64,000 nucleotides of DNA, taken from Thalassobacillus devorans MSP14. GTDB lineage: Bacteria > Bacillota > Bacilli > Bacillales > Halobacillaceae. The stretch covers positions 166,709-230,708 of the forward strand of contig NZ_KI543236.1 in assembly GCF_000496835.1 (NCBI RefSeq). Reading direction: 5' to 3'. The translations under genes were made by a program, and so were the position numbers. The notes beneath the pieces were generated by a model. The model saw only the letters and a program-made list of their open reading frames with translations. It had not been told where the DNA came from and ran no database searches. Positions 6,561 through 12,074 of the stretch are shown here, one piece after another; position 1 is the stretch's first letter; each line of letters begins with the position of its first letter.

Positions 6561-7206
6561 GCCGAATTGTGGAAGACTCAGTTTCAAAGTAATTTGGGTT
6601 CGTTACCGAGACAGGGGAAGGGGTGGCTGGGAAACGATTCGCTTTCCAGCTTCATCGCCTTGGGAGACACTCGCGACATAAGCAGTCCATCAACGGGAAG
6701 AAAGAACACTTCCCTTTTGCTGTTCTGCTTATGCGTGTCGTGTCTCCCAAGGCGATTACGCATTCGTTTTTTTCCTGTGGGGGAGGCTGGCAAGCCTCCT
6801 CGGTCGTTTCACGACCTGTGGGGTCTCGCCTAGCCCCTTCTCCCACGGGAGTCTCACCGTTTCCCCGCCACCTTATCCATATTTTGACGAACGAACCCTA
6901 CATTGTGAGAAGATATCTTCCACATTTTCTGCATGAAAAGCTCAATGATTCAGGACATAAGCTCTTTTCAGCTGTTAAGATGGTGGTTCCGCATATCGAT
7001 GTTTCCGTTAGTCTTACAAACGCAAGGAGGGCCGGGAAATTGCGAGACTCCGATGGGAGGATAGGACATGGTGAGATCCCGCAAGGCGGAGCCTGAGGAA
7101 GCTCACCGTCCGCCCATGGAAAGCGAGTGATTTCCCGGACCTCCAAATGCTTATCGCCATAACGGAAACAGTTTCTCTCGAAACTGAGTCTTAAGCAATT
7201 GGGAGT
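6561..7206. repeat. Composite palindromic repeat, copy 1 (orientation A-reverse, B-forward)
   Basis: About 646 bp. The inverted ends are GACTCAGTTTC (6575-6585) and GAAACTGAGTC (7180-7190). Module A (about 6590-6900) is a large palindrome with base GGGTTCGTT/AACGAACCC, a stem at about 6625-6641 and 6857-6869 (GGAAACG type), and a nested hairpin at 6648-6770. Module B (7026-7144) has GGAGGGCCGGGAAAT pairing with ATTTCCCGGACCTCC and inner GGTGAG/CTCACC. No plausible protein is encoded. The open frames are by-products of GC-rich palindromes. It lies between convergent opuAC and yhaH. Confidence 0.9.
6648..6770. repeat. Nested hairpin unit inside module A of copy 1
   Basis: About 123 bp, flanked by TTTCC at 6643-6647 and 6771-6775. 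The long arms (ATCGCCTTGGGAGACAC... and ...GTGTCTCCCAAGGCGAT, with a CATAAGCAG/CTGCTTATG segment) enclose a GGGAAG/CTTCCC inner hairpin. It is absent from module A of copy 2. Confidence 0.8.
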
Positions 7207-8492: not shown

Positions 8493-8927
8493 TCAGGAAG
8501 GTATGTGCTTGTTGATTTCACCGGCGATTTTCTGAAGATCCTCCGTACTGTATTCGTCCGAATGTACTTCCCAGTTGGAACGGTATCCATCCCCCTGACC
8601 ATAACGGGGAATAAGATGGATATGTAAATGGAAAACGGATTGGTCTGCAGGTTTCTCATTGTTGTTCAATAAGTTCATCCCGATCGGCTGATACGTTTCT
8701 TTGATTGCTGCTGCCACCTGTGGTACGCGCGCAAACAACTTCCCAGCCGTTTCTGCATCTGTTTCGTAAATGTTTTTTTTGTGTGTTTTTGGAATGATAA
8801 GTGTATGCCCTTTGGTCACCTGGCTGATGTCAAGGAAAGCATAAACATCTTCATCCTCATATACTTTAGCAGAAGGGATATCACCTGCCACGATTTTGCA
8901 AAAGATACAATCTTCCTTATGGCTCAT
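8493..8927 (-). CDS. hit: HIT-family nucleotide-binding hydrolase Hit
   Basis: A 144-residue histidine-triad protein (HINT/Fhit-like fold), a presumed purine nucleotide phosphoramidase or hydrolase in the cytoplasm. Seen: the N-terminal zinc-type pair CIFC (residues 7-10), FLDISQVTKGHTLIIPK in the middle, and the triad HLHIH followed by LIPRY (about residues 101-110). The start is the ATG at 8927, with AAAGGAG 8 bp upstream. The GTG at 8936 is too close to that site. It lies upstream of, and divergent from, ecsAB, as in B. subtilis. Confidence 0.93.
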   Translation of the reverse strand: MSHKEDCIFCKIVAGDIPSAKVYEDEDVYAFLDISQVTKGHTLIIPKTHKKNIYETDAETAGKLFARVPQVAAAIKETYQPIGMNLLNNNEKPADQSVFHLHIHLIPRYGQGDGYRSNWEVHSDEYSTEDLQKIAGEINKHIPS

Positions 8928-9045
8928 CGCACTCACTCCTTTAAAATAGTTGATTGTATTGTACCATAATCCTTCTTTATGTAAGAAGTAACTGACAGAA
9001 AGGACGTGGAAATTTAATTATTCCAGTCACCTTGCAAATAGAAAA

Positions 9046-9312
9046 CAGAGCACCGAAGCCGGTACTCTGCCATAAAGGAGTGAAGCTAATAGATCGAACT
9101 TGTTGCCTACTTTCAAAAAGGGAAGCCATTCAATTTGGAAAGGCTTCCGGAATTTCGGATAGGAAACCGTTTATAAGCCTTCTGTCAACACCTCATTTGC
9201 ATGGGTAATCTGAATCTGGCTCATGAATGATCTTTCACTGACACCTCATTTCGTGGTTGAACCACTAGTTGAAATTGTCTTTGTGAAACGGGGTACTGCC
9301 TCACTCCTTACT
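9046..9312 (-). ncRNA. Candidate structured RNA between hit and ecsA
   Basis: The minus-strand sequence can fold end to end. AAGGAGTGA at its 5' end (9309-9301) pairs with TCACTCCTT at its 3' end (9083-9075). Inside are a stacked hairpin (TTTCAC/GTGAAA, GACA/TGTC, ATTTC/GAAAT, GTGGT/ACCAC), an ATGAGCC/GGCTTAT stem enclosing an ACCCAT-GCAA-ATGAGGT tetraloop hairpin, and alternative pairing of GGAAGCC with GGTTTCC or GGCTTCC. A terminator-like hairpin (CAGAGTACCG/CGGTGCTCTG, 9046-9069) with TTTTCT follows. The motif ATGAGGTGT occurs twice. No convincing promoter was found, so its status as a gene is an inference. No known family recognised. Confidence 0.45.
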
Positions 9313-9355
9313 ACGTAGTTTGGCGAAATGTGAAAAAAATATGCACAAGAATATT

Positions 9356-9384
9356 TTGGCATAGGATGTGGGGAATGGTAAAAT
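9356..9384 (+). promoter_or_regulatory. Sigma-A promoter of ecsAB
   Basis: TTGGCA (9356-9361), 17 bp, TAAAAT (9379-9384), with TGG just before the -10. It is about 35 bp upstream of the ecsA start. Confidence 0.75.
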
Positions 9385-9422: not shown

Positions 9423-10166
9423 ATGGAACCTTTACTACATATCGAAAACCTCCATGGAGGATATACGCATAAAAATGTATTGCATGGAATTTCTTTTGAT
9501 GTCTATCCAAATGAAATCGTCGGGCTGATTGGCTTGAATGGTGCCGGTAAAAGTACGACAATCAAACATATCATCGGGATGATGCAGGCAAAAAAAGGAC
9601 AAGTAGCGGTCAACGGACAACGGTTTGAAGAAAACCCTGAAGCTTATCGTCAGCAGATGGCTTACATTCCGGAAATGCCGATACTCTATGATGAGCTGAC
9701 GTTGTACGAACACCTGCATTTAACTGCAATGGCTTATGGGATAGAAGAACAACAGTTCAAGAAGCGGCTGGAGCCGCTTTTAAAAGAATTCCGTCTGGAA
9801 AAGAAATTGAACTGGTTTCCTGTTCATTTTTCCAAGGGGATGCGACAGAAAGTGATGATCATGTGCGCCTTTTTGATCGAGCCATCTTTGTATATTGTAG
9901 ACGAGCCGTTTGTTGGTCTTGATCCGCTTGGTATCCAGTCCTATCTTCAGTTGATGGAGGAAATGAAACAGGCAGGTGCGGGTGTGTTGATGTCTACTCA
10001 CATTTTAGCGACAGCCGAACGCTACTGCGATCGTTTCGTCATTTTGCATGATGGTAAAATTCGTGCCAAAGGTACACTGGAGGAGCTTCGGGAATCGTTC
10101 CGGATGCCGGGTTCATCACTGGATGATTTATATGTCCAATTGACAAAGGAAGAGAACCATGATTGA
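9423..10166 (+). CDS. ecsA: ABC transporter ATP-binding protein EcsA
   Basis: A 247-residue ATPase of the Ecs exporter. In B. subtilis Ecs affects protein secretion, competence and regulated proteolysis by RasP. Walker A is GLNGAGKST (about residue 40), the signature is the variant FSKGMRQK, Walker B is LYIVDEPFVGLD, and the H-loop is STH. The start is the ATG at 9423 with GGAGAGG upstream. The longer open frame to 9330 includes the promoter and is rejected. Its stop overlaps the start of ecsB (ATGATTGA), so the two are coupled. Confidence 0.95.
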   Translation: MEPLLHIENLHGGYTHKNVLHGISFDVYPNEIVGLIGLNGAGKSTTIKHIIGMMQAKKGQVAVNGQRFEENPEAYRQQMAYIPEMPILYDELTLYEHLHLTAMAYGIEEQQFKKRLEPLLKEFRLEKKLNWFPVHFSKGMRQKVMIMCAFLIEPSLYIVDEPFVGLDPLGIQSYLQLMEEMKQAGAGVLMSTHILATAERYCDRFVILHDGKIRAKGTLEELRESFRMPGSSLDDLYVQLTKEENHD

Positions 10167-11373
10167 TGCAAAAGCGTTTTGGCTGAAACGGTTCAATGAA
10201 CATATCAAAGAAACAGGAAGGTACTTAAGATATATATTCAATGGTCATATCGCGGTGGCCATGATCTTTTTCATTTCTGCCCTGGCTTTCTATTATCAGC
10301 AGTGGCTTGCCGATTTACCGGAAAACTTCCCAACAGCTTTGATTGTGGGCATCGCATTTGGTTTGATTGCCAGTTATAGTCCCGTGCGAACCTTATTAAA
10401 AGAGCCCGATCTCGTGTTTCTGCTGCCGGCAGAACATCAACTGGATGACTACTTCAAACGCTGTTTATTTTACAGCTACGTCGTCCAATTATATTTGGTG
10501 TTGCTGGTGGGAGCAGCATTAGGTCCGCTCTATTTCGCGAGCTATCCGGAGCAGGGGACGAATTTTTATTTATTGATGCTGCTAGTGGTTTTGATTTTTA
10601 AAGTATGGAATATGCTCGCCAACTGGTGGATGTTGAAAGAGCGGAATGCTAACATCAGGCTTTGGGATTTATTCACCCGTATTATACTGAATATTTCCGT
10701 TTTTTACTTTTTCGCGGCTGGCGAATTGTTGTTCGCAGGTATAGTCACCGTCTTGCTGTTCGGTGTTACCATGTACAATTATACACTCGCCAGGAAAAAG
10801 CCTGGTCTCGTCTGGGATGTTCTCGTAGAAAAAGACCAGGCACGGATGCGGGCTTTCTACAGGATCGCCAATATGTTCACCGATGTCCCGCATTTAAAAA
10901 ATACGATCAAAAAGCGTCACTGGCTTGTCGGGTTGCTGGTGAAGCCCGTACCTTACAAACAATCCGAGTCGTTTGATTATCTATACCGGATTACATTTGC
11001 TCGGAGCAGCGATTATGTGGGGATGTATTTCAGACTGGTTGTCATCGGAGGACTGGCGATTTATTACGTGCCGAACGTTTGGGTGAAGATTGCATTCGCC
11101 ATTCTGTTTCTCTATCTGAGTGCTTTTCAGATGATGACGCTGTGGAATCATCACCGCACGGTTGCCTGGATGGATTTGTATCCATTGAAACAGGAATGGA
11201 GGCAGCAGGCTGTCCTGAAATGGCTGCTTATGCTGATGTTATTCCAGACATTTTTGTTCGGTCTGCTGTTCATAATTCAGTGGAATCTGCTCGGTCTTGT
11301 CCTCGTCTGGGGTGGCGGTGCGGTCTTCAGCTGGCTGTTTACCCAAAGTTATATAAAACCGAGATTGACATAA
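10159..11373 (+). CDS. ecsB: ABC transporter permease EcsB
   Basis: A 404-residue multi-spanning protein, close to B. subtilis EcsB (408). About ten hydrophobic segments are visible (e.g. residues 28-48, 55-75, 100-125, 135-155, 165-205, 285-330, 350-398), with a basic cytoplasmic loop around residues 210-265. It forms the membrane part of the Ecs transporter with EcsA. It overlaps ecsA by 8 bp and ends at the terminator at 11380-11412. In B. subtilis ecsC follows directly, but here a repeat of about 640 bp separates them. Confidence 0.93.
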   Translation: MIDAKAFWLKRFNEHIKETGRYLRYIFNGHIAVAMIFFISALAFYYQQWLADLPENFPTALIVGIAFGLIASYSPVRTLLKEPDLVFLLPAEHQLDDYFKRCLFYSYVVQLYLVLLVGAALGPLYFASYPEQGTNFYLLMLLVVLIFKVWNMLANWWMLKERNANIRLWDLFTRIILNISVFYFFAAGELLFAGIVTVLLFGVTMYNYTLARKKPGLVWDVLVEKDQARMRAFYRIANMFTDVPHLKNTIKKRHWLVGLLVKPVPYKQSESFDYLYRITFARSSDYVGMYFRLVVIGGLAIYYVPNVWVKIAFAILFLYLSAFQMMTLWNHHRTVAWMDLYPLKQEWRQQAVLKWLLMLMLFQTFLFGLLFIIQWNLLGLVLVWGGGAVFSWLFTQSYIKPRLT

Positions 11374-11437: not shown

Positions 11438-12074
11438 TTTATTCAACAATTGGGCCGAAAAGTCGAAGACTTGATTTCGAGATAATGTTGGAAATTAGGG
11501 GCTCCGGGAAACGATTCGCTTTCCGTGGGCGTGTGCTGAGTCTCCTCAGGCTTCGCCTTGCGGGGCCTCACCTATCACTCAGCTCCCACAGGAGTCTCAC
11601 CGTTTCCCTACGCCCTTTGCCATAAAAAACACTCGAAATCATGCTTGACGAAACCTCACTATGATAATTTTGAAAGAAGACTTTTCACTCTTTATATCCT
11701 TTATAAATGGCTCAAGATGAAGATTTCAGCTAAACACATGAAGGGTTTGTTAATTACTAAATTGGCTGGATGGGCAGGGAAATGACGAGACTCCCGCGGG
11801 AGAAGGGGCTAGGCGAGATCCCACAGGGCATAGCCCGAGGAAGCTTGCCAGGTCCCCCGCAGGAAAGAAATAAATGCGTAATCGCCTTGGGAGACACGAC
11901 ACGCATAAGCAGAACAGCAAAAGGGAAGTGTTCTTTCTTCCCGTTGATGGACTGCTTATGTCGCGAGTGTCTATGCGATGCAGCTGGAAAGCGAGTTGTT
12001 TCCCAGCCCATCCCAGTCCCATCTTGGTAACGGACCCAATTATCTTGAAACTGAGTCTTCAGCAATAGGGAGCT
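11438..12074. repeat. Composite palindromic repeat, copy 2 (orientation A-reverse, B-forward; nested unit in B)
   Basis: About 637 bp. The left end (TTATTCAAC...GGCCG, GAAGACTTG) is diverged, and the right end is GAAACTGAGTC (12047-12057). The left module (about 11500-11625: GGGAAACGATTCGC...CACCGTTTCCC) matches module A without the nested hairpin. The right module (about 11770-12020: GGCAGGGAAATGACGAGACTCC...TTTCCCAGCCC) sits in the B position and contains the nested hairpin. It lies between ecsB and ecsC on the same strand, cutting the ecs operon. Confidence 0.88.
11867..11985. repeat. Nested hairpin unit inside module B of copy 2
   Basis: About 119 bp, nearly identical to the nested units of the other copies and flanked by the direct repeat GGAAAG (11862-11867 and 11986-11991). 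Its presence in module B, not A, is the main sign that it inserted independently. Confidence 0.8.

Follow-up and report, generated by a model that had tools for sequence, protein, structure and literature searches.

A candidate forespore RNA with tandem modules in the hit-ecsA gap of Thalassobacillus devorans and its relatives

In titrator RNAs such as CsrB and RsmZ a short binding motif recurs along one stable RNA, and the sites of CsrB are A(N)GGA sequences in hairpin loops. For the small RNAs (sRNAs) of the forespore, to our knowledge, almost no mechanism is understood. The closest described system is Bvs196 of Bacillus velezensis PEBA20, a 294-nt sRNA from the 490-bp hinT-ecsA gap that was detected by Northern blot (PMC9147052). 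According to the accessible text of that report, Bvs196 is forespore-specific and under the control of sigma-F and mainly sigma-G, and its deletion lowered the sporulation frequency and the resistance to heat and UV and raised the resistance to formaldehyde. The same text describes the stems as conserved and the loops as variable, reports conservation in 253 Bacillus genomes, and gives the pairing regions as 74-131 for spo0A and 109-124 for sspN-tlp (PMC9147052); no mention of a repeated module was found in it. CsfG (S547) is likewise a forespore-expressed independent transcript under sigma-F/G, as the RNA treated here would be, judging from its sequence. The available part of PMC8216469 reports that CsfG has C-rich regions like RoxS and FsrA. 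The assignment of S547 conflicts between the accessible texts, being CsfG in PMC8216469 and a Bvs196 homolog in PMC9147052. The Bvs196 paper is cited in PMC12456014, and no ecsA, hit or S547 was found in the part of its text that was available.

The window analysed here is a stretch of 64,000 nt from Thalassobacillus devorans MSP14. Its hit-ecsA gap contains a candidate RNA gene of about 270 nt on the minus strand (9312-9040), which looks like an autonomous RNA gene with a sigma-F/G-type promoter, a closing stem, two modules and an intrinsic terminator (Table 1). The earlier note, made from the letters alone, had listed an end-to-end stem, a ATGAGGTGT repeat, a GCAA hairpin, a GGAAGCC stem and a terminator on this strand, and all of them are present in their places. 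It had also called the region highly structured, which holds: the folding energy of the minus strand, -99 kcal/mol, was not equalled by any of 100 shuffles (mean -70.6, z -5.28), and folding of the plus strand is weaker (z -2.48). The "four-part hairpin" and "competing stems" of that note are folds that one sequence could possibly adopt. Open reading frames of 31-58 aa overlap the RNA region.

Table 1. Features in and around the candidate RNA gene (window coordinates).
Feature	Position	Strand	Remark
hit (HIT-domain protein)	8493..8936	-	PF01230; same strand as the RNA, downstream past the terminator
Predicted intrinsic terminator hairpin + TTTTCT	9040..9071	-	by pattern
Closing stem 3' arm GCTTCACTCCTT	9075..9086	-	pairs with AAGGAGTGAGGC
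GGAAGCC/GGCTTCC stem-loop	9121..9150	-	present in L001-L005 (same genus)
Unit 2 AAATGAGGTGTTGACAGAAGGC	9177..9198	-	pattern scan
CAT-GCAA-ATG hairpin	9194..9203	-	only 3 bp; unit 2 begins with its 3' arm
Unit 1 AAATGAGGTGTCAGTGAAAGAT	9230..9251	-	pattern scan (1 mismatch) and family profile
Small hairpin GTGG-TTCAA-CCAC	9253..9265	-	immediately upstream of unit 1
Closing stem 5' arm AAGGAGTGAGGC	9298..9309	-	pairs with GCTTCACTCCTT
Sigma-F/sigma-G-type promoter GCATA-N17-CAAACTA	9316..9344	-	11/12 consensus match
Sigma-70-like site	9356-9384	+	ecsA direction, back to back with the RNA promoter
ecsA (ABC transporter ATPase)	9423..10166	+	PF00005; divergent from the RNA
ecsB	10159..11373	+	PF05975

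The promoter was scored against the sigma-F/G consensus. Transcription would be expected to start at about 9309-9312, coinciding with the 5' arm of the closing stem. Of 93 loci, 63 have a promoter match of 11-12, as do 52 of 465 shuffles, in a set that includes loci picked for the module and without correction for relatedness. The terminator scan alone proves nothing, as it gave 2 terminator-like sites in 2.5 kb against 2.3 in shuffles, and sigma-70-like sites are common by chance (8 found in 2.5 kb, 5.7 expected). The window genome has sigG above the family cut-off.

BLAST located the RNA in 4 of 4 genomes of the same genus, always at hit-ecsA. The module was recognised from weak BLAST matches in G044 and G059, which clustered on the ATGAGGTGT repeats at hit-ecsA. 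The two copies of ATGAGGTGT in the window, spaced 53 nt apart within units 1 and 2, are by their letters the core of a module that is kept in many genera. Its consensus is AAAUGRGGUGUYURYNAAAGRY, about 24 nt, numbered A(-1)AAUGRGGUGU(9) Y10 U R Y N A A A G R Y; in the first module statistics the search pattern had fixed some of the core letters, and the later profile was trained on those units. A cut-off of 15 bits was used for the profile, for which 610 shuffles gave a 95th percentile of 4.8 and a maximum of 14.6, while the best short gap scored -1.4 and the best antisense strand 14.4 bits. Gaps carry 1 to 8 modules; most relatives have at least two, and three is the commonest number. In L116 (8 modules), L042 (6), L166 and L174 (4 each) the whole RNA has apparently been duplicated in tandem.

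EcsB is present in 199 of 199 genomes of the order, and hit-ecsA regions were collected through EcsB (60 by coordinates and 30 loci) and through EcsA (the best 80 of 571 relatives, which were named). The 60 regions form a hand-chosen sample, mostly of genera not already covered. Regions with no divergent hit-ecsA pair in reach were dropped (18 of 90 EcsB-picked, unscored, and 7 of 80 EcsA-picked, 4 of which carry the module). Because L031-L060 had been chosen for holding the module, rates were taken from the EcsB- and EcsA-picked loci alone. Among the EcsB-picked loci 72 had a divergent pair and 52 were positive, all 52 falling among the 55 gaps of >=400 nt and none among the 17 of <300 nt. 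The EcsA-picked loci gave 73 with a pair and 36 positive, namely 36 of 38 gaps of >=400 nt and 0 of 35 of <300 nt. Pooled, the 144 distinct gaps carry the module in 88 of 93 of >=400 nt and in 0 of 51 of <300 nt, the two sets sharing one genome and holding four further near-identical pairs across them. Only L102, L120, L132, L170 and L221 are long gaps without the module. Long gaps are thus nearly all positive and short ones never, so the gap usually holds the RNA or is short.

Positive loci among those named belong to B. siamensis, B. atrophaeus, B. safensis, Priestia, Neobacillus, Peribacillus, Mesobacillus, Cytobacillus, Sutcliffiella, Sediminibacillus, Virgibacillus, Pontibacillus yanchengensis, Oceanobacillus, Aquibacillus, Paraliobacillus and Terribacillus. 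Named loci without the module at hit-ecsA include those of Listeria, Enterococcus, Streptococcus, Isobaculum, Planococcus, Sporosarcina, Lysinibacillus, Ureibacillus, Halobacillus, Jeotgalibacillus, Domibacillus and B. badius. Listeria, Enterococcus and Streptococcus do not sporulate, and the module is found in 0 of their 7 loci. Lysinibacillus, Sporosarcina and Halobacillus do sporulate; the RNA is absent at hit-ecsA in many sporulating lineages and is therefore dispensable for sporulation. Of 50 genomes checked for sigG, 49 scored above the cut-off, among them all 30 that had been picked for the RNA at hit-ecsA. Of the 20 without it there, 19 have sigG above the cut-off and one just below, and these 20 include G143, which has a moved copy of the RNA. 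Since sigG is near-universal with or without the RNA, this test does not discriminate within the order.

The RNA was also sought away from the gap. Pattern AATGAGGTGTYNNYRRAAGRC matches in 24 of 199 genomes of the order (reversed control 0 of 199), and every match adjoins ecsB or shares its locus with hit and ecsA, apart from those at L041 and at L046 (G089), the latter with three modules on a separate contig. Pattern AAATGRGGTGTYNRYNNMAG matches in 20 of 38 same-order genomes and, elsewhere in the class, in 7 of 360 (reversed control 1 of 398). In 18 of the 20 (all but G446 and G526) the place of EcsB was known or the locus was inspected, and there the matches lie beside ecsB, except those at L234 and L249. 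The match at L234 is inside a coding sequence that we take to be relA-like. The moved RNA at L249 (G143, about 1300-1760) reads as complete, with two modules, a promoter-like sequence, a closing stem and a terminator; it adjoins sspH (PF08141), a small acid-soluble spore protein gene, and the hit-ecsA gap of that genome is short. A second moved copy, at L041 (G121, around 1522), has one module with a promoter-like sequence and a terminator. Outside the order, 6 of the 7 matching genomes have a single strong site, the one at L255 apparently in a coding sequence. The locus L251, from a sigG-bearing genome of another order (G235), has two modules, a closing stem and a terminator between ecsA and hit, and among 26 genomes around G235 matches occur only in G235 and in G078, a genome of the window's order. 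No plasmid matched the window RNA or the related B. siamensis stretch (L151), and 8 stretches in viral contigs, with one module each, were taken as chance.

The conservation of pairing, whose absence in relatives the earlier note had named among the grounds for rejecting the RNA, is found in the closing stem, which keeps pairing while its sequence differs widely on both sides. Examples of arms that pair with quite different letters are GGGAGACGUUG/CAACGUCUCCC, GGAUGAACUGUCC/GGACAGUUCAUCC and UGAAGAUCGAGGAUG/CAUCCUCGAUCUUCA. Across the 93 loci the cognate arms pair better than non-cognate arms (mean 23.8 vs 20.4, p 1.5e-15, relatedness not corrected for and module-picked loci included). The median of the cognate arms is attained by 20% of non-cognate pairings, and in some loci the best helix lies elsewhere. 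With its letters so different among relatives, the reading of the ends as Shine-Dalgarno and anti-Shine-Dalgarno sequences, proposed earlier, is not needed. The mean folding energy of 82 RNAs (82 of the 93 loci, the rest being mostly too long) is -96.0 kcal/mol against -76.9 when the flanks were shuffled with the modules fixed, and 97.6% are more stable, the flank shuffles being simple and not dinucleotide shuffles.

The fold of the interior is less certain. RNAalifold on 11 diverged relatives gave only 9 pairs, and on 13 Neobacillus-like sequences 52 pairs, 6 of them changed on both sides. Hairpins akin to the small GTGG/CCAC hairpin of the window also occur in L005, L193 and L202. Module letters formed no better helix with the cognate downstream flank than with non-cognate ones, although a subset of loci shows GUGUYU/ARACGC between the two, and duplexes of the module core with the flank on either side had only a marginal gain in energy over shuffles. 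In a later and narrower test, prompted by inspection of the sequences, CATTT/TCATT was found to be enriched about five-fold upstream of modules (CATTT 0.202 vs 0.043; reversed control 0.044 vs 0.042). CATTT/TCATT is the complement of AAATG/AATGA, and G is rare upstream of modules. This points to a short hairpin (UCAUU...AAUGA) leading into the module in part of the copies. Module positions -2 and 10 co-vary, G occurring with C and other bases with U. Among 146 matched copy pairs there are 14 concordant double changes, 0 discordant ones, and 11 and 13 single changes, though identity within the 14 concordant pairs is only 50-63%, so that they are "sister" copies in a loose sense. Either a base pair or a tertiary contact could underlie the coupling. 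In L161, L173, L061 and their relatives a further conserved CUUUAUAAGUUGNGAAACAUAUAAAG hairpin and an element RGGGGAUGGUY...UUGAAC lie between modules; the element possibly pairs with the preceding module. A pairing of the module with RGGGGAUGG in the Neobacillus-like alignment is not claimed, its support being mostly wobble changes.

The RNA of the window is almost certainly an ortholog of Bvs196, because B. siamensis (L151) has a 491-bp gap with a 294-nt stretch holding three modules. B. velezensis is here represented by B. siamensis, which belongs to the same species group. The three modules lie at 26, 143 and 202 of the 294-nt stretch, which starts with GAAGG and ends with the T-run of the terminator; this start was set by the 294-nt length, and the module numbering relative to that of the paper depends on it. 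The window RNA resembles Bvs196 in its place in the hit (hinT)-ecsA gap, its sigma-F/G promoter (by consensus), its terminator (by pattern), its similar length and the modules that it shares with L151. It differs in having 2 modules, about 270 nt, and another closing stem and interior; a closing stem as such is shared, being present in L001 as well as in L040 and L153, which are similar Bacillus loci. If the numbering of the paper starts where assumed, the published pairing regions fall between modules 1 and 2 (26, 143), and the conserved parts are therefore not explained by them. The most conserved parts of Bvs196 thus become visible, and they are seemingly not those proposed to pair with mRNAs. 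The Rfam search that had been proposed was run: Rfam 15 gave no family match at the gathering score, in the whole window or in 11 family loci, and three weak matches to the RNA region at E<=10, far below gathering scores, were taken as chance. No description of the module or of a wider family was found in the open-licence literature searched, which is not proof of absence. The RNA is thus more widely conserved than the one description found of it. New here are the tandem module and the breadth of its occurrence, in Virgibacillus, Priestia, Neobacillus, Oceanobacillus, others and one genome of another order.

The earlier proposal of a non-coding RNA is backed by this conservation, by the covarying closing stem, by the promoter- and terminator-like ends and by the correspondence with the detected Bvs196. 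The best explanation, which we hold with slightly more belief than doubt, is an autonomous forespore RNA orthologous to Bvs196 whose modules are repeated binding sites for a putative partner. The locus would be transcribed in the forespore, under sigma-G and to a lesser degree sigma-F, into a terminated non-coding RNA some 270 nt long. The long closing stem would hold the two RNA ends together, the interior would present copies of the near-invariant module, often after the possible short hairpin, and each module would bind one copy of the forespore partner. The RNA would behave like Bvs196 and act as a multi-site platform, a scaffold or titrator supporting spore quality, a role suggested by the deletion phenotype of Bvs196. 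The modules read as binding sites because they are near-invariant repeats in a sealed RNA with a forespore promoter and are kept where the RNA has moved. The repeated-motif design of CsrB and RsmZ serves as a model, although the module consensus, unlike CsrB, is without A(N)GGA, and the single AGGAG of the window, in the 5' arm, is within the closing stem. A protein titrator should share its motif with mRNAs; in the genomes scanned by pattern the strict module has no second recurrent site and occurs in few other places, which counts against a titrator. Antisense action may exist in addition to the role of the modules. A broader and more tentative reading, which in our estimate falls somewhat short of an even chance, is an order-wide class of forespore RNAs whose conserved function would lie in the tandem modules, each binding one copy of a dedicated forespore partner, either a protein or, by way of its anti-Shine-Dalgarno, the 30S subunit; the RNA would be a multi-site scaffold or a store deposited in the spore and not an antisense regulator.

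That the RNA is instead, as proposed for Bvs196, a trans-acting antisense sRNA pairing with spo0A, sspN-tlp and other mRNAs, with modules that are merely structural, is unlikely. The accessible text of PMC9147052 reports a Kd of 3.57 uM for spo0A by microscale thermophoresis, effects of the paired bases on affinity, and the deletion phenotypes in B. velezensis; this affinity, however, is micromolar and was obtained in vitro. In 19 of 20 genomes the antisense pattern ACACYTCATTT is more frequent than the reversed control, in counts that include the RNA's own modules and with composition uncontrolled. Given the assumed numbering start, though, the pairing regions lie between the modules and outside the most conserved parts, and the modules would be left without a role. 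It is more doubtful still that the modules are anti-Shine-Dalgarno decoys that catch 30S subunits and damp translation or store ribosomes in the maturing spore. Their core GRGGUG (its letters partly fixed by the search pattern) is the exact complement of CACCUC at the 16S 3' end, its variable base (A or G) being able to pair with U in either form, and a related element, a Shine-Dalgarno-like run followed by NUG, was seen by eye in at least 16 members. The match, however, is only 6 nt while AAAU and AAAGR are strongly conserved too, and the hexamer is predicted to be no more accessible than with shuffled flanks (0.227 vs 0.235, p 0.83, in the 82 RNAs). The sequence GGATCACCTCCTTTCT of the 16S 3' end was found in 5 of 10 genomes but not in the other 5, including the window's own, probably owing to incomplete rRNA in the assemblies; RF00177 detected no 16S in the window genome.

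The earlier note had also offered a cis element for hit or ecsA. A regulatory leader of hit, possibly a switch, would suit an RNA that is terminator-ended and directly upstream on the same strand, but it is very improbable: the RNA has promoter- and terminator-like ends of its own and runs opposite to ecsA, it is found away from hit with both kinds of end in G143 (L249) and G121 (L041), short gaps retain hit without it, and it is a forespore-type promoter that is conserved. Least credible of all is a dual-function RNA in which peptides of about 7-20 codons would begin at RGGGGAUG-N-NUG elements. At least 16 members, by eye, have AUG, GUG or UUG at a fixed place after the Shine-Dalgarno-like run; yet the peptides look unrelated across lineages, with lengths that by impression are roughly chance-like for AT-rich sequence, one such element forms its own hairpin (GGUU/AACC), and no clear copy was seen in the window RNA. 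These tiny reading frames were weighed and then set aside. For repeated binding sites, the preferred reading, the module is sharply defined, so that its partner can be tested for by pull-down and the published antisense role by module mutants.

The genes next to the gap have themselves been connected with sporulation. The available text of a transposon screen in B. subtilis reports that ecsA and ecsB mutants are sporulation-defective, and both genes adjoin the RNA-bearing gap (PMC4703394). In the window, a 5.1-kb stretch with a trpP-like gene, hit, the RNA and ecsAB is flanked by an inverted repeat of 120 nt that is 97% complementary (6665-6784 and 11853-11972). A dispersed repeat element is likely, because the translations of reading frames at about 7014-7160 and 11485-11625 also look alike.
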